From Streptomyces sp. NBC_01142 (lineage in GTDB: Bacteria; Actinomycetota; Actinomycetes; Streptomycetales; Streptomycetaceae), in contig NZ_JAPEOR010000003.1 in NCBI RefSeq assembly GCF_026341125.1, positions 930,001 to 994,000 on the forward strand: 64,000 nucleotides of DNA, in the 5' to 3' direction. Positions 22,671 to 38,901 of the stretch are shown piece by piece. The notes beneath the pieces are model-generated. The model ran no database searches, was not told where the DNA came from, and saw only the letters and a list, made by a program, of their open reading frames with translations. Position 1 is the stretch's first letter. The number at the start of each line of letters is the position of its first letter. The translations under genes were made by a program, and so were the position numbers.

Positions 22671-23309
22671 TCAGGGGCGGCCGTTGTTGTGGTGGTCACG
22701 GCCCCAGAAGTCGGTGCCGTCGGTACGGCCGTTGTTGTGGTGGTCACGGCCCCAGAAGTCGGTGCCGTCGGTACGGCCGTTGTTGTGGTGGTCACGGCCC
22801 CAGAAGTCGGTGCCGTCGGTACGGCCGTTGTTGTGGTGGCCACGGCCCCAGGAGTCGGTGTCGACGGTGCGGCCGTTGTCGTTGCGGAGGGTGGCGGTGT
22901 CGGAGCGGTCGTCCCAGACGTAGTCGCTGCGGTCCTGGTAGACATCGCGGCGGGTGTCGCGGCCGTGGCCGGTGTGGACGCGAACGGTGGAGTGGCCGGC
23001 CAGGCGCAGGTTGTCGAAGTGGTAGCGGTCGCCGTCGCGGTTGGTGAGGGTCCAGCCGTCGAGGTCGACCGCGCGGCGGCCGTTGTTGGTGACGTCGACC
23101 CATTCGGCGTTCAGGCTGCGGTTGGAGCGGGTGTCGCGTCCGGGGCTGTCGTACTGGATGTCACCGAGTACGACGGCGGAACGGGCTTGCTGGTGCCGGC
23201 CGTGGTCACGTCGGTCGTCGGCCGAGGCCGGCAGCGCCGCAGCGCCCACCAGGGCACCGGTGGCCAGAAGAGCGGCGACAAGGCGGCGAGTGGTACGAGA
23301 AGCAGACAT
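22671..23309 (-). CDS. Secreted lamin-tail-domain protein with repeated C-terminus
   Basis: A 212-residue protein. It has a signal peptide (RRLVAALLATGALVGAAALP, cleavage near ASADD), then a lamin tail domain (about residues 42-145) with SLNAEWVDVTNNGRRAVDL and WTLTNRDGDRYHF. The C-terminus consists of four 16-residue units of the form GRTDGTDFWGRDHHNN; the first unit is diverged (VDTDSWGRGHHNN). The repeats are rich in His, Asp and Asn and could bind metal ions (inference). LTD proteins are often secreted, and in bacteria some are nuclease-linked; no nuclease domain is present here. Confidence 0.82.
   Translation of the reverse strand: MSASRTTRRLVAALLATGALVGAAALPASADDRRDHGRHQQARSAVVLGDIQYDSPGRDTRSNRSLNAEWVDVTNNGRRAVDLDGWTLTNRDGDRYHFDNLRLAGHSTVRVHTGHGRDTRRDVYQDRSDYVWDDRSDTATLRNDNGRTVDTDSWGRGHHNNGRTDGTDFWGRDHHNNGRTDGTDFWGRDHHNNGRTDGTDFWGRDHHNNGRP
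22678..22869. repeat. 48-base tandem repeat, four units
   Basis: Units at 22678-22725, 22726-22773 and 22774-22821 read as identical; the fourth, 22822-22869, is diverged. They encode the His/Asn/Asp-rich 16-residue repeats at the C-terminus of the lamin-tail protein. Identity at the DNA level, including silent positions, indicates recent expansion. Confidence 0.9.
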
Positions 23310-27367: not shown

Positions 27368-28024
27368 TCAGGACTCGTCGGCCGCGCGGTCCAGGTGCGG
27401 AAGGTGATGGCCGAGGCGTTCCCGCTTGGTCCGCAGATAGAAGATGTTCTCCTCGCAGGGGGGGATCAGCAGCGGAACCTGTTCGGTGAGCTTGATGCCG
27501 TGCTCCAGAAGCGCCGCGCGCTTGCGCGGGTTGTTGGACAGCAGCCGTACGGATCGCACACCGAGGTCGTGCAGGATATCCGCCGCAACCCGGTAGCTGC
27601 GGGCGTCGTCCGGGAGCCCGAGCGCGAGATTGGCCTCGACGGTGTCCAGTCCTTCGGCCTGGAGCTGCATTGCCTGCAGCTTGGCCAACAGGCCGATCCC
27701 CCGCCCCTCGTGTCCGCGGAGGTAGACGAGAATGCCGCGTCCCTCGTTCGCGATAGCGCGCAGCGCCGCGGACAACTGCTCTCCGCACTCACAGTGCTTG
27801 GACCCGAAGGCGTCTCCGGTCAGGCACTCCGAATGTACGCGGGTAAGCGTTCCTTCCCCCTCGACATCGCCGTATACCAGCGCTATTTGTTCGTCTCCGC
27901 GAATGCGGTCCAGGTAGCCGACAGCGAGGAAATCGCCATGCTCCGTGGACAGTCGGACATTTGCCACGCGTTCGACGCCCGACGTACGGGCGCTGTCGCG
28001 CTGCGTGTCATTGTTATCTATCAT
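27368..28024 (-). CDS. ribA: GTP cyclohydrolase II homologue, FAPy-forming type (Tyr to Met)
   Basis: A 218-residue GTP cyclohydrolase II fold. The zinc cysteines are in CLTGDAF and CECGEQL (Cys67, Cys78, Cys80), and GTP-binding motifs RVHSE and GHEGRGIGLL are present. The position of E. coli Tyr105 (KIRAYALQ) is Met119 here (KLQAMQLQ). As I recall, the S. coelicolor paralogue SCO6655 has Met at this place and stops at the formylated pyrimidine FAPy instead of releasing formate. The neighbouring creatininase-like and RibD-like genes fit such a product. The ATG at 28024 was chosen; an upstream TTG (28063) adds 13 unconserved residues. This is probably not the housekeeping riboflavin enzyme. 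Confidence 0.9.
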   Translation of the reverse strand: MIDNNDTQRDSARTSGVERVANVRLSTEHGDFLAVGYLDRIRGDEQIALVYGDVEGEGTLTRVHSECLTGDAFGSKHCECGEQLSAALRAIANEGRGILVYLRGHEGRGIGLLAKLQAMQLQAEGLDTVEANLALGLPDDARSYRVAADILHDLGVRSVRLLSNNPRKRAALLEHGIKLTEQVPLLIPPCEENIFYLRTKRERLGHHLPHLDRAADES

Positions 28025-28168
28025 GATCCGATCATATCGGCTAACCTGCGGCGGTAGGCTCAAAATCGGTGAGTGGATATCAACTGGTCTGCCGATTCAA
28101 CGAGTTCGGTCGATAGGTGAACCATCCACGCCACCTCTCGTAGCAGAAGAAGGGAAGGGTCGGAAAGC
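28025..28168. promoter_or_regulatory. Divergent promoter of the FAPy cluster
   Basis: The 144 bases between the GTP cyclohydrolase and creatininase genes are relatively A+T-rich for this genome (TCATTGTTATCTATCATGAT). The imperfect palindrome CCGAT-CAT-ATCGG lies at about 28029-28041, close to the GTP cyclohydrolase start, and is a candidate operator. Confidence 0.4.
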
Positions 28169-28933
28169 ATGAGCGGTCCGCAAGCGCGACTTCCGGTATG
28201 CGGCCTGTTGCCGCTGGACACGACGACGGAGGATGTGAGGGCCGGGCAGAGTGACGTCGCTGTCCTTCCCGTCGGGAGTTTCGAGCAGCATGGGCCGTTT
28301 CTCCCCCTGATGACCGATACTGTCATCGCCTGCGCCATCGCCCGGGAGGTCGCTGCCGCGTATCCGGTTCACCTTCTTCCTCCGGTGACGGTCTCCTGCT
28401 CGCACGAGCATGCCGCCTGGCCGGGAACCGTCAGCATTTCCGCCGCGACCCTCTATGCCGTCGTGCGGGACATCGCCGAATCGCTTCGCCGCTCCGGTAT
28501 CAGTAACTTGGTTCTGATCAATGGGCACGGTGGAAACTACGTACTGCGCAACATTGTTCAGGAGTCCGCCGGCAGCGGGACTCGCATGGCGCTTTTCCCG
28601 GGGTCCACCGACTGGACCGCGGCGAGGGACAGGGCCGGTGTGCGGACGCCGTCTCACAGTGATATGCATGCGGGCGAAGTGGAGACGTCCATCTTGCTGC
28701 ACGACAGTCCAGAACTGGTACGCCCCGGTTACGAGACCGCCGATTGGACGGCCGACGAGCGGGAGCATCTGCTTACTCTCGGTATGCAGGCCTACACGGA
28801 ATCAGGCGTGATCGGCTGCCCGTCATTGGCGTCGTCCCGGAAGGGTAAGGAATTGCTGGCAGGCCTTGTTGATTCTTTCTCCGAATACTTCTCGCTCATG
28901 GCACCGGCCAACGTCCGGCAGGAGACACGATGA
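28169..28933 (+). CDS. Creatininase-family amidohydrolase (candidate FAPy deformylase)
   Basis: A 254-residue creatininase-fold protein. The metal-binding motifs are PVGSFEQHGPFLPLMTD (about residues 33-49), INGHGGNYV (about 113-121) and SDMHAGEVETS (about 165-175). In archaea a protein of this family, ArfB, removes the formyl group from FAPy in riboflavin and F420 synthesis. Standing divergent from a FAPy-forming cyclohydrolase and coupled to a RibD-type reductase, this protein is well placed for the same reaction (inference). GGAAAG lies before the ATG at 28169. Its stop overlaps the next ATG. Confidence 0.88.
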   Translation: MSGPQARLPVCGLLPLDTTTEDVRAGQSDVAVLPVGSFEQHGPFLPLMTDTVIACAIAREVAAAYPVHLLPPVTVSCSHEHAAWPGTVSISAATLYAVVRDIAESLRRSGISNLVLINGHGGNYVLRNIVQESAGSGTRMALFPGSTDWTAARDRAGVRTPSHSDMHAGEVETSILLHDSPELVRPGYETADWTADEREHLLTLGMQAYTESGVIGCPSLASSRKGKELLAGLVDSFSEYFSLMAPANVRQETR

Positions 28934-30702
28934 CCGGCAGCGCCGCCGAGCAGGGTGTCGGCATGGTCGACGCATCGGAAGCCTGGGAGCGGCTGCGCGG
29001 CATCCGATCCGAGGCGGACGCCGACGCCGCCGGGCTGTTCCGGGGCGCGGACGGAAAGCGCCGGTGGCGGGACGCCTCGCCCGAGGCGGATGTCCTCGCC
29101 GACCGCTATCTGTCGCTGTGCCTGGCCGGTCCGCGCTTCACGTTCGCGCAGCTGGGGCAGAGTCTGGACGGTTTCATCGCAAGCCGTACCGGCGACGCCA
29201 ACTACGTCACCGGCGAAGAGGATCGCGAGCACCTGCACCGCGTGCGGGCGCTCGCCGACGCGGTGATCGTCGGAGCCGGCACCGCGGTCGCCGACGATCC
29301 CCAACTGACAGTCCGTGCCTGCACGGGAGCCAACCCGGTGCGCGTCGTCCTCGATCCGCACTGCCGGGTACCGCTGCGCCACCGGGTGTTCACCGACGGG
29401 GCGGCGCCGACCCTGTGGGTGGTGGGCGCCGACAGCGAGCGCGGGCAGGCCACTACGAGAATCGACGGCGTTGACGTACTGACCCTGCCCGACAGCGCTG
29501 CGTTCGCCCCTCGACGCCTGGTACGCGAGCTCGCAGCACGCGGCCTGGGCCGCGTGCTCGTCGAGGGCGGCGGCGTGACCGTGTCGCGCTTCCTCCATGC
29601 GCGGGCGCTGCACCGGCTCTACGTCACCGTGGCACCGGTCCTGCTCGGCGACGGCGTCCCGGGGCTCGGCTTCCCCGGTCCGGAGCTGATGCGGGACGCG
29701 CTCCGTCCGCCGACGCGACGCGCCGTCCTCGGCGAGGACACCCTCTTCGAACTCGACCTGCGGATGGCGCATTCCGGCGAACCACTGGGTGAGGAGCACA
29801 CCGATACCGGGCAGGCTCGCGGCGAAGGTGAGTAGTCCGTACACCACGGCAACGGTCAGCCCCTGGGCAGCGCCCATGCCCGCGGCTGCGAAGGCCCAGG
29901 CGGTGACTCCTTCCCTGGGCCCCCAGCCGCCGATGTTCAGCGGCAGCGCCATGGCGAGCAGCGCCAGCACCATCAGGGGCAGCAACTCGGCCGCCGGCGC
30001 CGTCGACCCCGCGGCTCGGGCAGCGAGGAGGAACGTACCGAGATGCCCCGCCAGCACCGCAACGGAGGAGATCAACACCCCCGGCCAGCTCCCGCGGGCG
30101 AGCAGTCCGAGCCGTGCTTCGGCCAGCGTGGTGCGGAGCGACCGGCGCCATCGCGATGTGTCCGGCGTCCGGCGGAGCCGGACGACTCCCACGATCACAA
30201 GACCGGACACCACGGCAAGGGCTGTCGCGGCGCCCGGCGTCGCGACACGGTGACCGATCTCCGCCAGGGCCAGGGAGGGTTGCGTGATCAGGAGCGCCAC
30301 CCCGACCGCGACCAGGACCGCCTGCCCCGCGATCCGTTCGAGGACGACCGCGCGGATGCCCCGGCCGACGTCACCGGCGCTCTGCCCGTGCCGTACCGCG
30401 CGGTGCACGTCGCCGAGGACGCCGCCGGGCAGCGCCGCGTTCAGGAACAGAGCGCGGTAGTAGTCGGCGACGGCCCGGCCCAGCGGCAGCCGGATGCCCA
30501 GCCCCCGAGCCACCAGGCACCAGCGCCACGCGCTGAACACGGTGGTGAACAGCCCGAGGGCGAGAGCCGCCAGGAGGGTGGGTCCGTCGATCCCGTGCAG
30601 GCCGTCCAGGAAAGCGCCGGTGCCCTGCCACCACAGCATCGCCGCGACGATGGCGGCTCCGACGAGCATGCCGAGGCGGGCCCGGACCGCCCGCAGGATC
30701 AT
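28792..30702 (-). CDS. LPG-synthase-TM/UPF0104-like integral membrane protein (3' end uncertain)
   Basis: Residues 1-315 (about 29750-30702) form a polytopic membrane protein of the lysylphosphatidylglycerol synthase TM-region/YbhN family: FLNAALPGGVLGDVHRAVRH (about residues 91-110) and LPLNIGGWGPREGVTAWAF (about 255-273) are its hallmarks. Such proteins act in lipid or glycolipid transport or modification. The frame then stays open for over 300 codons antisense to the RibD-like gene, giving a sequence with no family character; the natural stop may be lost or a frameshift may lie near 29800. The ATG at 30702 overlaps the methyltransferase stop by 4 bases, so it is the last gene of that operon. 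Confidence 0.65.
   Translation of the reverse strand: MILRAVRARLGMLVGAAIVAAMLWWQGTGAFLDGLHGIDGPTLLAALALGLFTTVFSAWRWCLVARGLGIRLPLGRAVADYYRALFLNAALPGGVLGDVHRAVRHGQSAGDVGRGIRAVVLERIAGQAVLVAVGVALLITQPSLALAEIGHRVATPGAATALAVVSGLVIVGVVRLRRTPDTSRWRRSLRTTLAEARLGLLARGSWPGVLISSVAVLAGHLGTFLLAARAAGSTAPAAELLPLMVLALLAMALPLNIGGWGPREGVTAWAFAAAGMGAAQGLTVAVVYGLLTFAASLPGIGVLLTQWFAGMRHPQVEFEEGVLAEDGASRRRTERVPHQLRTGEAEPRDAVAEQDRCHGDVEPVQRPRMEEARHGHAAALDEHAAQAACCELAYQASRGERSAVGQGQYVNAVDSRSGLPALAVGAHHPQGRRRPVGEHPVAQRYPAVRIEDDAHRVGSRAGTDCQLGIVGDRGAGSDDHRVGERPHAVQVLAILFAGDVVGVAGTACDETVQTLPQLREREARTGQAQRQIAVGEDIRLGRGVPPPALSVRAPEQPGGVGVRLGSDAAQPLPGFRCVDHADTLLGGAAGHRVSCRTLAGAMSEKYSEKESTRPASNSLPFRDDANDGQPITPDSV
28930..29835 (+). 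CDS. RibD C-terminal-domain (pyrimidine reductase-like) protein
   Basis: A 301-residue protein of the dihydrofolate reductase-like RibD_C family. LGQSLDGFIASRTGDANYV (about residues 75-93), DAVIVGAGTAVADDPQLTVR (about 109-128), RVLVEGGGVTVSRFL and TVAPVLLGDG fit the NADPH-dependent pyrimidine reductase fold. There is no deaminase domain; the first 65 residues are an unassigned helical extension. It is translationally coupled to the creatininase-like gene (ATGA). The likely role is reduction of the ribosyl side chain to ribityl, as in the archaeal ArfC step. Its 3' end is convergent with, and overlapped by, a minus-strand membrane protein gene. Confidence 0.85.
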   Translation: MTGSAAEQGVGMVDASEAWERLRGIRSEADADAAGLFRGADGKRRWRDASPEADVLADRYLSLCLAGPRFTFAQLGQSLDGFIASRTGDANYVTGEEDREHLHRVRALADAVIVGAGTAVADDPQLTVRACTGANPVRVVLDPHCRVPLRHRVFTDGAAPTLWVVGADSERGQATTRIDGVDVLTLPDSAAFAPRRLVRELAARGLGRVLVEGGGVTVSRFLHARALHRLYVTVAPVLLGDGVPGLGFPGPELMRDALRPPTRRAVLGEDTLFELDLRMAHSGEPLGEEHTDTGQARGEGE

Positions 30703-31592
30703 GCGGTGCCGCCCGTCGGCCCGGGCAGGGCCAGCACATCGCTGTGGTGCACCACGGCCCGCAACTCACCCGCTTCGCACGCTGCCAGGCGGCGTTGCAG
30801 ATACGAATCGGCATCCGGCGCGAGGTCCGGCCGCTGGTCACGGGCGGCGCCGACCCAGCCCCGTAGCCACTCCGCCGTCAGCGCGGACTCGTCGGCGCCC
30901 AGCCGCCACGGGCTGGCCTGCACCTGCACCGTCAGGCCGTGGCGTGCGAAGGCATCGGAGGCCGCCGTGGCGGCATCGGGTCCCAGGAGCCGGCGGCCGT
31001 GATCGACGCGGCGCTGGTGGGCGTTGAACGCGTCGGCGATCTCGGCGTCCAGCGGGTCGGCAGGCGTGAGACCGACCCGCCCCGCCACGGAGAGCGCCAG
31101 CAGCGCAGGGCAGCCGGCCACGGCACAGGCCGCGGCGAGCGCGTCCAACTCGTCGCGGGTGAGCAGGTCCAGGAGAGCGGAGGCCGTCACCAGCGAGGTG
31201 CCGGTGAGGCCGTCCGCGGTCAGGCGGGTGATGTCACCGCGTTCCGTCGTCACCGTGACGCGGCTGCCGTCGGCGGCCGTACGGGGCATCTGCGCGGCGG
31301 CCAGAGCGAGCAGGCCGGGGTCGTGGTCGTGCAGGATCCAGTGCTGGGGACCGTTCAGCCGGGGGGCCAGCCAGCGCCCCATGGAACCGCTGCCGCAGCC
31401 GAGATCGCGGATTGTCAGCCCCGCGTCCCGCCGCGCCGGACCCGCCGGATTCATGGGGGCTGCCGGATCCACCTGGTCCGCCAGGTGTTCCCGCAGCGGG
31501 TCGAGGAGTTCTGCTGCGCGGGCGGCGGCGTCGGCGCCCTCCCGCAGTGCCAGCCACTCCGGGGCGTATCGAGGTGCGTCGGTCTCGCTCAT
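30699..31592 (-). CDS. SAM-dependent methyltransferase
   Basis: A 297-residue class I methyltransferase. Motif I reads IRDLGCGSGSMGRWLAPRL (about residues 61-79), the acidic loop is ILHDHDPG, and motif III lies around LVTASALLDLL. The substrate is unknown; the operon suggests a pterin/pyrimidine-derived or glycosylated intermediate (inference). The ATG at 31592 overlaps the glycosyltransferase stop (ATGA), and its stop overlaps the next ATG. Confidence 0.85.
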   Translation of the reverse strand: MSETDAPRYAPEWLALREGADAAARAAELLDPLREHLADQVDPAAPMNPAGPARRDAGLTIRDLGCGSGSMGRWLAPRLNGPQHWILHDHDPGLLALAAAQMPRTAADGSRVTVTTERGDITRLTADGLTGTSLVTASALLDLLTRDELDALAAACAVAGCPALLALSVAGRVGLTPADPLDAEIADAFNAHQRRVDHGRRLLGPDAATAASDAFARHGLTVQVQASPWRLGADESALTAEWLRGWVGAARDQRPDLAPDADSYLQRRLAACEAGELRAVVHHSDVLALPGPTGGTA

Positions 31593-32710
31593 GCGGCTCT
31601 CCGTGGTTCTTGCCGGAGTTGTTCCAGCGCCTTGGCCAGGCTCCGTGAGGTCGCTTCCCAGCCGTCCAGCGCGGTGCGCCGGCGTCGCGCGGCCGCCTTG
31701 GCACGGTGGCGTTCGCCGGGGTCGCTCAGCCAGCGGCGCAACGCCGCGGTGAGAGCCGCCGGGTCCTTCGGCGGTACAAGGACGCCCGGCACACTGCCGT
31801 CGGGCGCGCGCCCGACCGCCTCCGGGAGCCCGCCGACGGCCGTCGCCAGTACGGGAACCCCGCGCGCGAGCGCCTCCGTCACGGCCATGCCGTACGTCTC
31901 GGCGTGCGAGGTGAGCACCAGAAGGTCGGCGGCGGCGTAGCTCGCGTTCAGCTCGGCGCCGGACCGGGGGCCGACGAGGTGGACCCGGTCGCCGAGGCCC
32001 CGTTCACCGATCAGCTCCCTGAGCAGGGCTACGTACTCCGGATCCTGGCCCAGCCCGCCGACGCAGAGGCAGCTCCACGGCAGGTCGGCGACGGCGGCGA
32101 GGGCCTGCACCAACTGGTCCTGGGCCTTACGCGGGGTCACCGAGGCGACGCACAGCAGCCGCAGGGGGCTGCCGGTGCCGGTCGCCAGGGGGGCTATGTC
32201 GGCTCCCGGGGCGGCGACATGGACCCGGCCGGGGGCGAGCCCGTGGTGGTCCACGAGCCTGTCGGCCGCCCACTCACTGGTTGCCACGACTGCCGCCACG
32301 GCCCGCAGTGTCCTGCGCTCCGCGGCGTCCAGAGTGGCCGCCGGGCCCGGTGCCAGTCCTGTCTCGTCGCCCAGCGGCAGGTGCACCAGTACCGCCAGGC
32401 GCAGCCGTTCGGCCTCGGGGACGATGATGTCGGGTACGGCGCAGGCGACGAGTCCGTCGAGGAGGACGAGGGTGCCGTCCGCCGACTCCCGGAGGATCCG
32501 CGCCAGCTCCGCCCGCGCGTCGGCTCCCGGCTGTGGCCAGTCGCCCGCGACAGCATGCTCACGGACCTGCCAGCCGACCCGGGGGAGGTCCCGGCACACC
32601 CTGCGGTCGTAGATGTTTCCGCCGCTCGGCGCGGCCGGATCGTCGACGCCACCGGGCATCACCACACGCACTGAGCGCTGGGGCATGGCGGTGGCGGCTG
32701 CGTGGCTCAC
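31589..32710 (-). CDS. GT4-family glycosyltransferase
   Basis: A 373-residue GT-B glycosyltransferase. [20 protein letters not shown] (about residues 186-205), the linker [20 protein letters not shown], and the nucleotide-sugar motif [20 protein letters not shown] (with E-x7-E) place it in GT4. The GTG at 32710 overlaps the stop of the PTPS-like gene (GTGA), which fixes the start. The donor and acceptor are unknown. It is part of the five-gene minus-strand operon 34207-28792. Confidence 0.88.
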
Positions 32711-33105
32711 AGAGCCCGCTCGTAACTCGCCCACGCGATGTGCGATTCGTGCAGGGTGACTGTGATGCCGGCGAGACCGCGGGCTCCCTCGCCCAGCGCC
32801 CCGGCGTGCACCCGGTCGGCCAGACGGTCGGCGATGACCTTGGCCAGGAATTCCGTCGAGGTGTTGGTGCCGGCGAATTCGGATTCGTCATCGAGGTTGC
32901 GGTAGTTGAACTCGCCCACCACGCTGCCGAGTTCACTGGTGGCCAGTCCGATGTCGACGACGATGTTGTCGGCGTCGAGCTCGGGACGGCGGAAGGTGGC
33001 GTCCACAAGGAACGTCGCTCCATGCAGACGCTGCGCGGGTCCGAAGACCTCCCCGCGGAAGCTGTGAGCGATCATGAGGTGCTCGCGGACGGTGACGCTG
33101 AACAA
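32707..33105 (-). CDS. 6-pyruvoyltetrahydropterin synthase/QueD homologue without zinc site
   Basis: A 132-residue T-fold protein: [53 protein letters not shown]-like [15 protein letters not shown], and [14 protein letters not shown]. True PTPS/QueD enzymes have Cys-x3-HGHNY; here this reads AQRLHGATF, so the second zinc His and the catalytic Cys are missing. I recall that the S. coelicolor homologue SCO6650 has a known structure, lacks zinc and the catalytic triad, and does not catalyse the PTPS reaction, yet keeps a pterin-like pocket. The TTG at 33105 is chosen because GGGAGG lies 9 bases upstream and the family starts at FSVTVR. Confidence 0.85.
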
Positions 33106-33208
33106 CGGTTGTGACCTCCCGGTCCGACGCATATGGCCGCTGGCGGCCCTATGCCCATCAGTACGGCCGGAGCGTACTGCGTGTTCAAAGGCCCAGGTCG
33201 TTCGGAGT

Positions 33209-34207
33209 TCAGGCGCAGGACGTCGCGGTGGTCGTGTCGTACAGAACGCGGTGGCACAACCCGGGAAGATCACCGGCGGCGATCCCGTTCATCACCGACG
33301 GCAGCTCCTCGAAGGCGCATTCACCGGTGACCAGTGCGTCGAAGGCGGGGTCGGCGAGCAGATCGAGCGAGAGCGCGAGCCGGTCGGCGAAGGTCCGGCT
33401 GGAGCGCCGGGCCGGAGACACCCTCCCCACCTGGCTGCCGCGCAGGACCAGACGGCCGGAGTGGAAGGCCTCCCCCAGCGGCAGACTGATCCGCCGGTCG
33501 CCGTACCAGCTCAGTTCCAGGACCGTTCCCTCCGCAGCCAGGAGCTCCAGTGAGCGTGCGAGTCCGCCCTCCGTGGCGCTGGCGTGGACGGCGAGGTCAC
33601 AGTCGCCCAAGGCGTCCTCGGGGAGCGCGAAGTCGACGCCCAGCGCCTCGGCGACGGCGGCGCGGGCGGGGTCGGAGTCGACCAGCTGGACGCGCACGCC
33701 CGGGTACCGGGCGAGAAGACCGGCGACAGAACAGCCGATCATGCCGGCTCCGACAACGGCGATCCGGTCACCGATCAGCGGTGCGGCGTCCCACAGGGCG
33801 TTCACCGCGGTCTCCACCGCCCCTGCCAGCACGGCCCGCCCGGCGGGGACGGTGTCCGGCACCGGGGTCACTGCACTCGCCGGGACGACGTACCGGCTCT
33901 GGTGCGGGTAGAGGCAGAAGACCGTACGGCCGACGAGGTGCCGCGGACCTTCCTCGACAAGGCCGACGTTGAGATAGCCGTACTTGACGGGCCCGGGGAA
34001 CTCGCCGTCCTGGAACGGCGCCCGCATGGCGGTGTGCTGGCTCTGCGGTACGCCGCCGCGAAAGACGAGGCTCTCCGTACCCCGGCTCACACCGGAACAC
34101 AGGGTGCGCACCACGACGTCGTCGTCGGCCGGTTCCGGCAGCGAAACATCCCGTATCTCGCCGTGACCGGGGGATCGGAGCCAGAAGGCGCGTGCGGCGC
34201 GGTCCAT
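33209..34207 (-). CDS. Zinc-type alcohol dehydrogenase-like protein
   Basis: A 332-residue MDR-superfamily protein. [15 protein letters not shown] (about residues 37-51) resembles the L-threonine/sorbitol dehydrogenase-like group that lacks the structural zinc loop, and the Rossmann loop is [20 protein letters not shown] (about residues 149-168). The ATG at 34207 has AGGAGG 8 bases upstream. It heads the minus-strand operon with the PTPS-like, glycosyltransferase, methyltransferase and membrane protein genes. It may oxidise or reduce a sugar or alcohol in the pathway. Confidence 0.85.
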
Positions 34208-34324
34208 TCGGCGACCTCCTGTTTTGAACGCTGGGGTGACGGTTTACGTTCTGATCATCGTGAGACCGCGCACACGGTACGCGGCACTCAGCGAATCTGT
34301 CACATGGCCTGAGGATGGTGCGCG

Positions 34325-35083
34325 GTGGCCCTGAGCGGCACATACGACACGAGGCTGGTGCGCCCGGCGCCGGCGGCAGGGGCGGGCGCGCAGACGCTTC
34401 TGCTGGTTCTTCTCGGTGCGGTGATCGGACTGGGGCCCGCGGGATGGCTGACGGGCCTGACGTTCACGGTCGCCACCTGGGCTGTGCTCACCCGTGCCCT
34501 TCGCCGGTCGCGGCGCGGGCCCTTCGGCCCGGCCAACGGCGTCACCCTGGCCCGCACAACGCTCGTCGGGGGTGTGACCGCTCTGGTCGCGGATTCCTTC
34601 GTGAGCCGGCCGCCGGTGGTGGTCCTCGTCGTCCTCACCACGGTGGCGCTGGTCCTTGACGCGGTCGACGGCCAGGTCGCCCGGCGCACCGGTACGGAGT
34701 CCGCCTTGGGGGCACGCTTCGACATGGAGGTCGACGCCTTCCTCATCCTGGTGCTCAGCATCTACGTCGCCATGTCGCTGGGCGCGTGGGTGGTGTTGAT
34801 CGGCGCCATGCGCTACGTCTTCGTCGTGGCGGCCCGGGTGCTTCCGTGGCTGCACGGGCCGCTTCCTCCGAGCACGGCCCGTAAGACGGTGGCCGCGCTC
34901 CAGGGAATCGTCCTTCTTGTGGTCGGCGCCGGGATCATCCCGCGGGTGTCCGCGTACGCGGTGGTTGTGGCGGCGCTGGCGCTGCTCGTCTGGTCCTTCG
35001 CGCGTGACATCAGGTGGCTGTGGCGGGTGAGGGTCCGTGAAGACGCTCCGGGGGTCCCGGCCCCGACGCACGAAAGCGTGTGA
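34325..35083 (+). CDS. CDP-alcohol phosphatidyltransferase-family protein
   Basis: A 252-residue membrane enzyme with about five to six helices. The CDP-AP motif D-x2-DG-x2-AR-x8-G-x3-D-x3-D is complete: DAVDGQVARR followed by ALGARFDMEVD (about residues 113-136). The family joins a CDP-linked alcohol to a second alcohol with release of CMP. The GTG at 34325 is the start. It is divergent from the dehydrogenase that heads the minus-strand operon, with about 117 bases between, so it likely belongs to the same cluster. Confidence 0.87.
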   Translation: MALSGTYDTRLVRPAPAAGAGAQTLLLVLLGAVIGLGPAGWLTGLTFTVATWAVLTRALRRSRRGPFGPANGVTLARTTLVGGVTALVADSFVSRPPVVVLVVLTTVALVLDAVDGQVARRTGTESALGARFDMEVDAFLILVLSIYVAMSLGAWVVLIGAMRYVFVVAARVLPWLHGPLPPSTARKTVAALQGIVLLVVGAGIIPRVSAYAVVVAALALLVWSFARDIRWLWRVRVREDAPGVPAPTHESV

Positions 35084-35260: not shown

Positions 35261-37078
35261 TCAGGACGCTGCCCGGCGGTAGATCGTGATCGAGTGGCCG
35301 ATCTCGTCGAGGGGCCTGCTGCTTTCGATCAGCGCCCTCAGCCGGCCGTCGGCCTTGGCGATCGAGGAGTCCGACACGACGAGCAGTCCCTGAACCTCGC
35401 TCGGGGGTGCTGTGCGCGGGTCGGACGCATCGATGCCGTAGGAGGACGGCACACCGCTGCCCTTGTAGACGAGCCAGATCCTCTCGCCCGGGTACCGCTG
35501 CCGGAGGTGGTCGGCCAGCCGGCCCAGGTCCTGGCCCCAGTCGACGTTCGAGTCGTGCAGGCGCAGATGGGTCTTCGCCGGACCGCCGAACGCCTCGTTG
35601 GAGTACGGCAGGTAGTACGGGAACGTCCGCACCGAGCTGACCGCGACGAACAGGAGGAGCGCCGCCGTCACGACATGTGCCCACCGCCGCCGGAAGGCGA
35701 CCACACCGGCCGCCGCGACCGCGAGGAACATCGGTACGAAGACGGCGTACCGCACGCCGAGATCGCGGGATCCGGTCACGGCCGCGGCCAGCAGCACGGC
35801 CGTGGGGACGAGCACGTACGGTGCCGCGGGCCGCAGCCGCGGAACCGTCACGGCAGCGACGGCACCGGCCGGCCACAGCGCGAGCATGCCGAGCGGGGTC
35901 TTTATCAGCAGCGCGGCCGGCAGGTAGTACCACAGCGAACCGTGGTAGTGGCGGCCCAGCAGGAAGCCGCTCCAGGTCGCGTTCTCGAAGCCGAACTGAA
36001 TGCGCATACCGTCCCGGTACGGTTCCGGGAAGGGGAGCCGGTCGACGACATACGCGCGCAGTCCATGGGTCACCGGCAGGTTGTCGGGCGCAGCCCAGCG
36101 CAGCCGCGGGTCGACGGCGAGGTAGGTGGCCCACACCGTGGCGATCGCGACCAGCGCCACGACGACCGCTGCCGCCAGGCCATGCGCGAGAAGCCGTGCC
36201 CGCCCGCGCGGGCCGGGGCCGTCCGTCCGTCCGGCGTACCAGACCGACAGGACGACCAGGAGCAGCAGTACCGGCACCGTCGCCAACGCGTTCATTTTCG
36301 TGGCCATGGCCGCGCCGAGCGCCACTCCGGCGAGCGGCAGGTGGAGGCGCGGCCGCCGCCGTGCCCGCCACAGCAACCAGACCGCGGTCAGCAGGAAGCC
36401 GGCCGTCAGTACGTCGAGCGTGGCCAACGACCCGTGCGCGATGACGTCGGGCGAGAACGCGTACAGGGCGAGCGCCACCAACCCGCCCACCGGGCCGGCG
36501 AGGTCACGGGCGAACGCGAAGACGACCACACCGAACAGCAGTGTCAGCACGATCACCGGCAGGCGCGCCCACAGCATCAGGCGCCACGGATCGTTGCCCG
36601 CTTCGTACAGGACGTGCCGCCCGAGCTGCGTCTGATTGCCGACGAAGGCGGGGTCGAGGCGTGCGTCGGCGAACGCCGTCCCCGCCGCGATGATCAGCTT
36701 GCCCAGCGGCGGATGCTCGGGGTTGTACCGCAGGCTGTGCTGCTGCTGGTAGACCTCCGCCGCGCCCACGTACACGGGCTCGTCGATGGTCGGGGTCTGC
36801 TCCACGGCCGTCGTGACCATCGCGACCGCCATCTCGGCGAGGAGCGCGACCACGGCGAGCGCGATCAGCCACCGCCGGTGCCGCCGCAGCCCTTCGGAAA
36901 TCCGGCCCGGGTGCCGGCGCAGCCCTTCGAGCAGGCGCGGCAGCCTTCCGCCGGCCGGGACGGGCCGGCGGGGCACAGCGGGCGTTGCGGTGTGCTCGCC
37001 GCCCCCGCGGTCGAGGAGCACGTGGTGTTCTTGGCTCGTCGTCCCCGCAACCCGCTCCCGGTGTCCCTCGGTGGTCAC
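35261..37078 (-). CDS. GT39/ArnT-like membrane glycosyltransferase
   Basis: A 605-residue polytopic glycosyltransferase of the protein-mannosyltransferase/ArnT superfamily. The first periplasmic loop has the catalytic-type Asp-Glu in TPTIDEPVYVGAAE (near residue 100), then RYNPEHPPLGKL, and about eleven hydrophobic segments follow. Such enzymes transfer a sugar from a polyprenyl-phosphate carrier outside the membrane. The GTG at 37078 overlaps the stop of the LtaS-like gene (GTGA), which sets the start; the longer frame to 37426 is antisense-like Arg-rich sequence. Confidence 0.82.
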   Translation of the reverse strand: MTTEGHRERVAGTTSQEHHVLLDRGGGEHTATPAVPRRPVPAGGRLPRLLEGLRRHPGRISEGLRRHRRWLIALAVVALLAEMAVAMVTTAVEQTPTIDEPVYVGAAEVYQQQHSLRYNPEHPPLGKLIIAAGTAFADARLDPAFVGNQTQLGRHVLYEAGNDPWRLMLWARLPVIVLTLLFGVVVFAFARDLAGPVGGLVALALYAFSPDVIAHGSLATLDVLTAGFLLTAVWLLWRARRRPRLHLPLAGVALGAAMATKMNALATVPVLLLLVVLSVWYAGRTDGPGPRGRARLLAHGLAAAVVVALVAIATVWATYLAVDPRLRWAAPDNLPVTHGLRAYVVDRLPFPEPYRDGMRIQFGFENATWSGFLLGRHYHGSLWYYLPAALLIKTPLGMLALWPAGAVAAVTVPRLRPAAPYVLVPTAVLLAAAVTGSRDLGVRYAVFVPMFLAVAAAGVVAFRRRWAHVVTAALLLFVAVSSVRTFPYYLPYSNEAFGGPAKTHLRLHDSNVDWGQDLGRLADHLRQRYPGERIWLVYKGSGVPSSYGIDASDPRTAPPSEVQGLLVVSDSSIAKADGRLRALIESSRPLDEIGHSITIYRRAAS

Positions 37079-38901
37079 CGGGCCGACGGGGACGACTTGG
37101 GGCCGGGCTGCGGACCGTAGGCGGTCAGGAAGCGGTCGCGGAAGGTGTCCATCCGCCAGGCCGGAGCCTGCGGGCCGGGCTTCAGGCCGTCCTGCCAGCC
37201 CCAGCCGGAGATCCTGTCCATCACGGCCGGGTCGCGGGCGACGATCGCGATCGGTACGTCCCGGCCGAGCTTGCCTTCGGTGACGGTCGGGTTGGGCTGA
37301 TGGTCGCCGAGGAAGACGAGCACAGTGTCGTCGTCGCCGTACTTCTCCACGTAGGAAATGAGGCTGCTCAGTGAGTACTCGATGGCGCGCCGGTATTCGG
37401 TGCGCACCTGGGCGGGGTCCTTCCACACGTCCTTGGGGTCCTTGCCCGCCTCTTTGATGGCGTGGTAGACCGAGCCGTCACCGACCTCGTCCCAGCCGAT
37501 CATCTTGGGTATGGGGGCCCAGGGATTGTGGCTGGAGGCGAGAATGATCTCCGCCATCAAGGGCTTGTGGCCCTGCTTGCCGTGCTCCAGGCGTTCAAAG
37601 GCCGACAGGCTGTACTGGTCGGGTACGGGCGTCCAGCTGAACTTCGGCCCCTCGTATCCGAGATCCCGGGAGTCGTAGACGTTGTCGAGACCATAGAACT
37701 CCCCTTCCGGCCAGGACCGGGTGACGCCTGGCATGATGCCGACCGTCCGCCAGGCACCCGTGTGCTGAAAGGCGCTGGTGAGGGTCAGGCGGTCGCTCGA
37801 GGTGAGATTGCGGTACCGCTGCTGGTTCTTGATCCACAGGCCTGACGCGAAGGTGGAGTGGGCCAGCCAGCTGCCGGCGCCCGTCGTCGGGGAGGTGAGG
37901 AAGGCGCTTTGGGAGGTGAACCCGGCCGCGCGCAGCCGACTGGTCCCGTCCGCGAGCACCGCGCCGACCTGCGGCGCCATCTCCGGGTCCTCGACCGCGC
38001 TGCGGCCGTAGCTCTCGATGAAGGCGAAGATGACGTTCTTGCCGCGCAGTCCGGTCAGCAGCTGGTCGGTCGGGGTGTCGCGGAAGGCGTCGACGGCGGA
38101 TTCCCTGGCGAACGTCTGCTTGTCCTCCAGGCCCGCATTCACCTGCTCCACACGGCTCTGGACCAGCCCGGCCGTGTTCCTGGAAGCGACCGGCCCGCCG
38201 GCGATCTGCACGCCGAGAGCAGCACAGGTGATCCAGACGGTCCCGAGGACCAACGTGGTCCGGGTCGCCGCGACGCTGTGCCGGACCACGAGGTGGCTCA
38301 GCCGGACGACCGCCAGTGCCATGAGAACGAGCAGGGCGAGGACGAGGACCACGACCCCGACCAGGGCCACGATCGTGCCGGCCTGGCCGACGGAGTCCCT
38401 GAGGAACGCCTCGGCGTCGTCGAACAGGATCCAGTCGAGCACCAGGTCGAACGGCCGGTCGAGAACCGAGTAGAAGCCCATGTCGAGGAATTTCAGAATG
38501 GTCAGCAGGCCCAACACCGCCCCGGCGAGCACCGCCACCACCCGCCTCGCCTTCGGCCGCAGGACGAGAAGCACGGCGGCACCGAAGATCCCCTCCACCG
38601 GGATGCGCGCGAACTCACCGGGCGTGAGGCGGGTGAGCTCGTTCGGCACGAGGAGACCGAAGAGCACGAGCACGGCGGCCAGGCCGGTGGTCACCCTTGC
38701 TCCGGCCTGTGCCGCGGCCGGGTGCCTGTCCCGCCAGCCTCCTGGTACGGCCTCGCCCGGGGCGTCACTGCTGCCGTCCTCACCCGCGGCGGTGTCGTCC
38801 GCCGCGTGCTCCGGGGAGGGGGAGGCGTCCGGCGGCAGGCCCTCGTCCCTGCTTGCGTCATCCGTGGTCGGCAGCTGACGAGAGCGTGTGAAGATCGACA
38901 A
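37075..38901 (-). CDS. LtaS/sulfatase-family membrane phosphoglycerol transferase-like protein
   Basis: A 608-residue protein: a cytosolic acidic N-terminus (about 70 residues), four to five membrane helices, and a large extracellular alkaline phosphatase/sulfatase-fold domain. Recognisable parts are GKNVIFAFIESYGRSAVEDP (about residues 288-307), TSPTTGAGSWLAHST (candidate nucleophile Thr) and VLVFLGDHQPNPTV (metal ligands Asp-His). The family includes lipoteichoic acid synthases and phosphoglycerol transferases. The TTG at 38901 is preferred because GGAAGG lies 8 bases before it. It is coupled to the GT39 gene. Confidence 0.83.
   Translation of the reverse strand: MSIFTRSRQLPTTDDASRDEGLPPDASPSPEHAADDTAAGEDGSSDAPGEAVPGGWRDRHPAAAQAGARVTTGLAAVLVLFGLLVPNELTRLTPGEFARIPVEGIFGAAVLLVLRPKARRVVAVLAGAVLGLLTILKFLDMGFYSVLDRPFDLVLDWILFDDAEAFLRDSVGQAGTIVALVGVVVLVLALLVLMALAVVRLSHLVVRHSVAATRTTLVLGTVWITCAALGVQIAGGPVASRNTAGLVQSRVEQVNAGLEDKQTFARESAVDAFRDTPTDQLLTGLRGKNVIFAFIESYGRSAVEDPEMAPQVGAVLADGTSRLRAAGFTSQSAFLTSPTTGAGSWLAHSTFASGLWIKNQQRYRNLTSSDRLTLTSAFQHTGAWRTVGIMPGVTRSWPEGEFYGLDNVYDSRDLGYEGPKFSWTPVPDQYSLSAFERLEHGKQGHKPLMAEIILASSHNPWAPIPKMIGWDEVGDGSVYHAIKEAGKDPKDVWKDPAQVRTEYRRAIEYSLSSLISYVEKYGDDDTVLVFLGDHQPNPTVTEGKLGRDVPIAIVARDPAVMDRISGWGWQDGLKPGPQAPAWRMDTFRDRFLTAYGPQPGPKSSPSAR

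Follow-up and report, generated by a model that had tools for sequence, protein, structure and literature searches.

In Streptomyces sp. NBC_01142 (genome size 10.1 Mb), a 64,000-nucleotide stretch of contig NZ_JAPEOR010000003.1 (positions 930,001 to 994,000; hereafter the window, numbered from its first letter) carries a gene cluster that, with a probability of about 0.5, converts GTP to a modified 2-amino-4-oxopyrimidine or pterin metabolite and attaches this to a membrane lipid. The cluster encodes a GTP cyclohydrolase II (GCHII), a creatininase-family protein, a stand-alone RibD_C reductase (RED), a flippase-like protein (gene flip), a methyltransferase (mt), a GT4 glycosyltransferase (gt4), a homolog of 6-pyruvoyltetrahydropterin synthase (PTPS; ptps), a medium-chain dehydrogenase/reductase (MDR; adh), and a CDP-alcohol phosphatidyltransferase (cdpap). 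All nine genes, which the original prediction had noted from the sequence as standing together, were located at the expected positions with the expected domains by open reading frame and domain scans (Table 1). The observation is thus confirmed, and the interpretation attached to it, an archaeal-style FAPy pathway leading to a decorated metabolite, is partly supported and widened.

The genes form a real cluster. In the window, adh, ptps, gt4, mt, and flip make up a minus-strand run with 4-nt overlaps between gt4 and mt and between mt and flip, the plus-strand creatininase and RED genes overlap by 4 nt at the creatininase stop, and two pairs are divergent, cdpap from adh and GCHII from creatininase. 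The expected co-occurrence in other genomes was borne out by comparison of neighborhoods. When named genomes were searched with the PTPS, the best 80 of 372 relatives were used; this set favors close kin and is wholly actinobacterial, with loci mostly of Streptomyces, and also of Actinacidiphila, Phytohabitans, Planosporangium, Amycolatopsis, Sciscionella, and Actinomadura. Among these 80 loci, ptps is present in all by construction, adh and cdpap in 80 each, gt4 and mt in 79 each, flip in 77, and creatininase and GCHII in 73 each; the counts for the last two and for RED cover only the locus stretches extracted, three of which (L122, L125, and L148) end at contig borders. Creatininase matches (E ≤ 1e-10) occur in 167 of 246 genomes of the genus Streptomyces. 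However, the creatininase by itself had to be rejected as a cluster marker: of 40 Streptomyces regions examined, the cluster was found in 21, whereas the other 19 contain a creatininase homolog (34–64% identity) and no further cluster gene, and synteny was checked for this reason. In 15 of the 19 cluster-free regions (L034, L036–L042, and L044–L050), the homolog (53–64% identity, presumed metal-site residues kept) lies directly behind a gene of one family, resembling by eye a helix-turn-helix/tetratricopeptide-repeat regulator, in what looks like a separate two-gene unit (for example, the gene at about 10650–11867 of L037, minus strand, with the adjacent creatininase). As for the spread of the cluster markers, the creatininase marker is found in 121 of 246 Streptomyces genomes, the PTPS in 154 of 293 genomes of the order, and the dehydrogenase (E ≤ 1e-50) in 9 of 396 Actinomycetota genomes, with five candidates scored per genome.

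Entry into the pathway would proceed from GTP to 2-amino-5-formylamino-6-ribosylamino-4-pyrimidinone 5'-phosphate (FAPy) by the GCHII, followed by release of formate by the creatininase-family protein to give the diamino compound 2,5-diamino-6-ribosylamino-4-pyrimidinone 5'-phosphate (DARP), two steps that can be proposed with considerable confidence. The window GCHII belongs to the bacterial family (TIGR00505, 222.5 bits; cut-off 205.85) and is predicted to form FAPy. Its residue at the position of Tyr105 in Escherichia coli RibA, Tyr being presumably the mark of DARP-forming enzymes, is Met (KLQAMQLQ versus KIRAYALQ in PDB 2bz0), and the only other GCHII match in the genome is a RibBA with Tyr. 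The same Met is presumably found in SCO6655 of Streptomyces coelicolor, which is taken to stop at FAPy; a 2006 study by Spoonamore et al. is said to connect SCO6655 with this Met and FAPy, and SCO6650 with the lack of zinc, of the catalytic triad, and of PTPS activity.

The window creatininase is the sole match to its family in the genome, and E39, H41, D50, H120, and E170, presumably the metal ligands, are all conserved in 94 of 95 ptps-bearing loci with a creatininase. Two other assignments of this protein were tried and rejected, namely mycofactocin MftE (TIGR03964, 139.3 bits; cut-off 172) and true creatininase (TIGR04448, 96.0 bits; cut-off 235). A precedent for its predicted activity is BrbF (SMc02977), a bacterial FAPy formamidase of the creatininase family shown to deformylate FAPy (PMC9478397); the likeness is one of family, and BrbF differs in serving riboflavin synthesis. 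Where a locus (of 137) holds both GCHII and PTPS, the residue at the Tyr105 position is Met in 88, His in 3, Leu in 1, and Cys in 1, with a creatininase in all 93, and Tyr in five loci plus a sixth case, L280, with a creatininase in none of the six within the extracted stretch; because Tyr and the absence of creatininase each need a single change on the core-gene tree, these counts overstate independence and the association is only suggestive. The Tyr-type GCHIIs are themselves not all of one kind, with a PRK08815-type enzyme in L196 and the short RibA type in L183, a locus with GCHII and no creatininase. Three haloarchaeal clusters (L192, L198, and L204) have a gene annotated as GTP cyclohydrolase IIa (GCHIIa) immediately ahead of adh, with a Pfam GCH_III match for L192 and L198. 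The product of the archaeal enzyme is likewise given as the formylamino compound FAPy (PMC9478397), and thus the cluster contains, in these cases, an enzyme that is unrelated to the bacterial GCHII yet has the product predicted for it. Both FAPy as the entry point and the creatininase as its deformylase, as originally predicted, gain support from these patterns.

It could be argued that these enzymes merely constitute a second supply line that raises the level of flavin or deazaflavin precursors, given that GCHII, creatininase, and RibD_C are all riboflavin-type enzymes and that BrbF acts in that pathway. This is highly improbable, since domain scans of ten cluster proteins revealed no RibH, RibE, or RibB domain, the genome encodes a RibBA and a canonical RibD of its own, and PTPS, GT4, and CDP-alcohol transferase are not known to take part in making riboflavin.

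In the next step, proposed with moderate confidence, a deaminase-free reductase, RED here and another enzyme elsewhere, would convert the ribosyl to a ribityl group with retention of the 2-amino group. In the bacterial riboflavin route, this amino group is removed. The window reductase scores below the cut-offs of both archaeal ArfC (TIGR01508, 104.3 bits; cut-off 186.45) and canonical RibD (TIGR00326, 111.2 bits; cut-off 156.35), and it lacks a deaminase domain, while the creatininase reaches only 41.4 bits against ArfB (NF033501; cut-off 180). Hence, the term archaeal-style holds for the chemistry, in that the three reactions of ArfA, ArfB, and ArfC are predicted and three haloarchaeal clusters carry GCHIIa, and not for family membership. 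RED is present in the window as originally described, but it is an irregular, optional member of the cluster: matches were found in 12 of the 80 best named loci, two of which (27% identity) belong to another subfamily, leaving 10 true REDs, and the other 68, three of them ending at contig borders, hold neither RED nor an alternative RibD_C gene in the extracted stretch. It occurs in 12 of 21 Streptomyces clusters, in eight of the nine annotated plasmid loci from bacteria, and in no haloarchaeal locus, and the window RED groups with reductases of proteobacterial and Microbacterium clusters.

In Streptomyces genomes with the cluster, the distribution of canonical RibD (query L209, E ≤ 1e-60) largely follows that of RED. 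Across the 246 Streptomyces genomes, with the cluster defined by the creatininase at E ≤ 1e-104 plus G233 (synteny read in 21 of the 121 cluster genomes; G001, with a copy of 8.4e-88 at a contig end, was counted among the genomes without the cluster), canonical RibD is present in 20 of 20 genomes that have both the cluster and RED, in 2 of the 101 that have the cluster but lack RED, and in 113 of the remaining 125, counts that overstate independence because the link amounts to one or two independent contrasts on the core tree. Six RED-less genomes without canonical RibD have a reversed RibD, in which the reductase precedes the deaminase (L229:1006-2136, L230, L233, L234, L236, and L237; Pfam was run on one), and two further RibDs start with the reductase (L256 and L258). 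At five of the six reversed-RibD loci, a nearby gene resembles GCHII by eye. Moreover, a stand-alone reductase of another, archaeal-like clade adjoins the clusters L113, L178, and L280, in genomes with canonical RibD; the best NCBIfam match of that in L113 is archaeal DARP reductase, below the cut-off. These patterns are read here as a need of the pathway for a reductase acting on the 2-amino compound, which may be provided by RED, the linked archaeal-like enzyme, the reversed fusion, or archaeal primary metabolism.

The same data bear on a rather unlikely alternative, a split GTP cyclohydrolase I, in which GCHII and creatininase supply DARP, the PTPS homolog performs both Amadori rearrangement and ring closure, and RED stands off the path, reducing the pterin ring by virtue of its dihydrofolate reductase-like fold. 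PTPS shares T-fold kinship with GTP cyclohydrolase I, and the commonest Streptomyces form of the cluster has no RED; yet RED is linked to nearly all annotated bacterial plasmid loci, an alternative reductase takes a place beside three clusters, and RED-less Streptomyces mostly carry a different RibD.

With the ribityl compound as substrate, the BchC-like dehydrogenase would oxidize a side-chain alcohol; should this be the 2'-OH, a 1'-amino-2'-ketone would result. The Amadori rearrangement of GTP cyclohydrolase I yields the same 1'-amino-2'-ketone, textbook chemistry that is applied here by inference. The zinc-less PTPS homolog may then hold the pyrimidinone via its conserved Glu and aid ring closure to a dihydropterin. 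The dehydrogenase scores far below the BchC cut-off (TIGR01202, 46.8 bits; cut-off 291.25). Its GTE and KYGY motifs, located at what are taken to be the positions of the zinc ligands in zinc MDRs, are invariant in 22 actinobacterial members of its family, and the enzyme apparently lacks the usual zinc-ligand motifs; its AlphaFold2 model (predicted local distance difference test score, pLDDT, 82.1) has the MDR fold, with only generic relatives in Foldseek. The window PTPS matches SCO6650 (PDB 3d7j) over all 122 aa, and therefore the comparison with S. coelicolor SCO6650-SCO6655, raised in the original prediction, is apt; the six locus numbers seem too few to accommodate RED in addition to the other six genes, while both RED and a sulfatase gene are present in the window. 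The PTPS keeps the PF01242 fold common to the PTPS/COG0720 subfamilies and the Glu of LHES, but neither its QRLHGAT nor the EGEIHSHHY of the haloarchaeal L192 conforms to the signatures of subfamilies I–III (CxxxHGH, CxxxxxHGH, and ExxHGH; PMC5041015), a source in which PTPS-V is called unclear. In an alignment, all nine bacterial proteins have PAQ..HGAT, all six haloarchaeal ones AQH and HSH, and all 15 a Glu near the C-terminus.

Ring closure is dispensed with in the earlier reading, that of an uncyclized glycoside of a ribityl-diaminopyrimidine, akin to the vicine of faba bean, in which the PTPS homolog only binds the pyrimidine. RED and GT4 would suffice for such a product, and the PTPS lacks the published HGH signatures; nevertheless, it is an improbable solution, as no dehydrogenase would be needed, yet adh accompanies ptps in all 80 best named loci and in two minimal ones, L208 and L278. 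The most far-reaching form of the proposal made here, advanced quite tentatively, is a GTP-cyclohydrolase-I-independent pterin route by reduction and re-oxidation at C2', yielding a methylated, glycosylated lipid head group that would be flipped outward, in actinobacteria, proteobacteria, and haloarchaea with differing front enzymes for FAPy and DARP. A redox role in this route would fit the cytochrome b561-type gene found in four proteobacterial clusters (L193, L196, L201, and L202; cytochrome b genes, with a Pfam cytochrome b561 match for two).

The cluster is not a peculiarity of Streptomyces, in that related cores occur in proteobacteria and haloarchaea. A tblastn search of 72,556 plasmid records with the dehydrogenase matched 126, many only partially, and 18 of these were opened: bacterial loci from Ca. 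Thiodictyon, Methylosinus OB3b, Agrobacterium, Palleronia, Peteryoungia, Rhizobium, Neorhizobium, a Rhodobacteraceae strain, Microbacterium, and Arthrobacter, and eight from haloarchaea. In 16 of the 18, ptps directly follows adh (one gene away in L207, missing in L198), gt4 is next in 12, and a methyltransferase lies nearby in 16, two of them annotated as hypothetical and recognized by profile or BLAST. Adjacent adh and ptps with mt characterize the family across bacteria and archaea, apart from L198, where ptps is missing, and L278, where mt has no match. With profiles made from proteins of the window and of the bacterial plasmids, matches were obtained to haloarchaeal adh at 7e-69 or better in seven loci, gt4 at 2.2e-47 or better in four, mt at 3.4e-17 or better in six, cdp at 3.3e-20 or better in three, and ptps at 9.1e-10 or better in six, E-values that refer to about 35 haloarchaeal neighborhood proteins. 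The top solved structure for the PTPS of L192 is SCO6650, ahead of QueD. In the core-gene tree (118 rows; L206, whose PTPS was not located, is left out; the tree carries a warning of long branches), six haloarchaeal rows are set apart, with support, by a long branch. Among the flanking genes, an inositol-monophosphatase gene adjoins the Palleronia cluster. Beside the Haloarcula sinaiiensis cluster, L197:7996-8865 encodes a short protein resembling sulfatases (Pfam Sulfatase 21 bits; cut-off 25), and a creatininase gene (33% identity) lies at a distance of about 5 kb. A possible minimal form is seen in L278:8983-11393 (Arthrobacter plasmid) and L279:9522-12298 (G487, actinobacterial), in which matches are confined to adh-ptps-gt4 and the genes that follow encode a protein of about 360–400 aa and a tRNA-type deaminase.

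The final steps would consist of decoration by the methyltransferase, whose AlphaFold2 model (pLDDT 87.9) retrieved generic methyltransferases only, and the GT4 enzyme, followed by coupling of the product or its alcohol to a phosphatidyl lipid (archaetidyl in archaea) by the CDP-alcohol phosphatidyltransferase, after which the flippase-like protein may move the lipid outward, where a sulfatase-fold protein may act. The three last-named proteins suggest a lipid stage. From the dehydrogenase onward, each step has between a modest and an even chance of being correct. The originally predicted glycosylated, methylated, perhaps lipid-linked product fits the gene content, from which all steps past deformylation are drawn. 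The cluster probably reaches as far as the sulfatase-superfamily gene downstream of cdpap, whose product (Pfam Sulfatase 19.7 bits, under the cut-off of 25) is related, over 513–536 aa, to sulfatases beside three rhizobial clusters; the gene adjoins 7 of 21 Streptomyces clusters and 6 of the 80 best named loci. Pterins bearing sugars are already known as a class, namely the pteridine glycosides of cyanobacteria, Chlorobium, and Sulfolobus, for which the pertinent part of PMC3546692 mentions neither lipid attachment nor an origin from FAPy or GCHII.

Several points weigh against the proposal. Coupling of the two front enzymes is imperfect, as both GCHII and creatininase are missing from L113, L178, and L187, and L175 has a creatininase and no GCHII match; five of the eight haloarchaeal loci lack GCHIIa beside adh, and five of nine bacterial plasmid loci (L193, L194, L195, L200, and L203) list no GCHII. 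RED is missing from L200, and G118 and G215 break the rule that relates RED to RibD. The haloarchaeal PTPSs keep three His, unlike the bacterial ones, and their chemistry may therefore differ. The Arthrobacter locus L278 matches only in adh-ptps-gt4 and the Halobellus locus L208 consists of adh-ptps-mt, and hence glycosylation and lipid attachment are not universal. Finally, the substrates of the lipid enzymes are not deducible from sequence.

Table 1. Genes of the cluster and its flank in the window (positions in nucleotides of the window)
Feature	Position	Strand	Supporting data and remarks
GTP cyclohydrolase II (GCHII), SCO6655-like	27368..28063	-	PF00925 219 bits; alternative start 28024
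Creatininase-family protein (crea), predicted FAPy deformylase	28169..28933	+	PF02633 220 bits
Stand-alone RibD_C reductase (RED), no deaminase domain	28930..29835	+	PF01872 132 bits
Flippase-like LPG_synthase_TM protein (flip)	29785..30702	-	PF03706 129 bits; true stop uncertain
Class I SAM-dependent methyltransferase (mt)	30699..31592	-	PF13649 30 bits
GT4 glycosyltransferase (gt4)	31589..32734	-	PF00534 108 bits; alternative start 32671
PTPS (T-fold) homolog (ptps), SCO6650-like	32707..~33105	-	3d7j E 1.4e-67
BchC-like MDR dehydrogenase (adh)	33209..34207	-	profile score, conserved motifs, AlphaFold2 model
CDP-alcohol phosphatidyltransferase (cdpap)	34325..35083	+	PF01066 53 bits; DAVDGQVAR...GARFDMEVD
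PMT-type membrane glycosyltransferase	35261..37078	-	PF02366 49 bits
Sulfatase/alkaline-phosphatase-superfamily membrane protein, probable cluster member	37075..38901	-	33-36% identity to the sulfatases encoded in L196, L201, L202

Outside the segment from gch2 to cdpap, no regular flanking gene family was found in the 40 Streptomyces regions, and the PMT-type glycosyltransferase has no family member among the 40 relatives compared. Large minus-strand genes resembling, by eye, those for nonribosomal peptide synthetases adjoin the cluster from 39274 to about 52000; they were rejected as members, no family past the sulfatase being regular in relatives. A defense role was rejected as well, PADLOC having returned only weak E1-E2 matches, to the dehydrogenase. 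A scan for sigma-70 promoters gave no site, and terminator-like sites were no more frequent than expected by chance. The open frame of the flippase extends antisense through RED and part of creatininase to 28792 (28792-30702, minus strand, 636 codons); such frames are at least 614 codons long in 10 of 22 RED-bearing relatives, and the longest among RED-less ones has 482. Elsewhere in the window, a secreted-looking protein (22671-23309, minus strand) contains a repeat (22678-22879) of 4.2 copies of a 48-bp unit coding for NGRTDGTDFWGRDHHN-like units.

In the open-license literature searched, no paper was recognizable as describing the product of the cluster. Expression of the S. coelicolor genes does appear in published tables: SCO6652 is listed with 0.8, 4.3, and 4.1 in a mycelial-stage table (PMC3610822), and SCO6655 (-0.61) in a table of genes whose expression opposes the predicted flux, most of which rise in stationary phase according to its legend (PMC2853524).

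Cluster markers are present in about half of the sampled Streptomyces genomes, and the structure matched by the window PTPS, PDB 3d7j, is listed as that of an uncharacterized protein. Since the prediction assigns a substrate to each enzyme, it is testable step by step. The enzyme set is kept in both domains, with differing ways to what is seemingly the same diaminopyrimidine, which indicates a shared, undiscovered metabolite.

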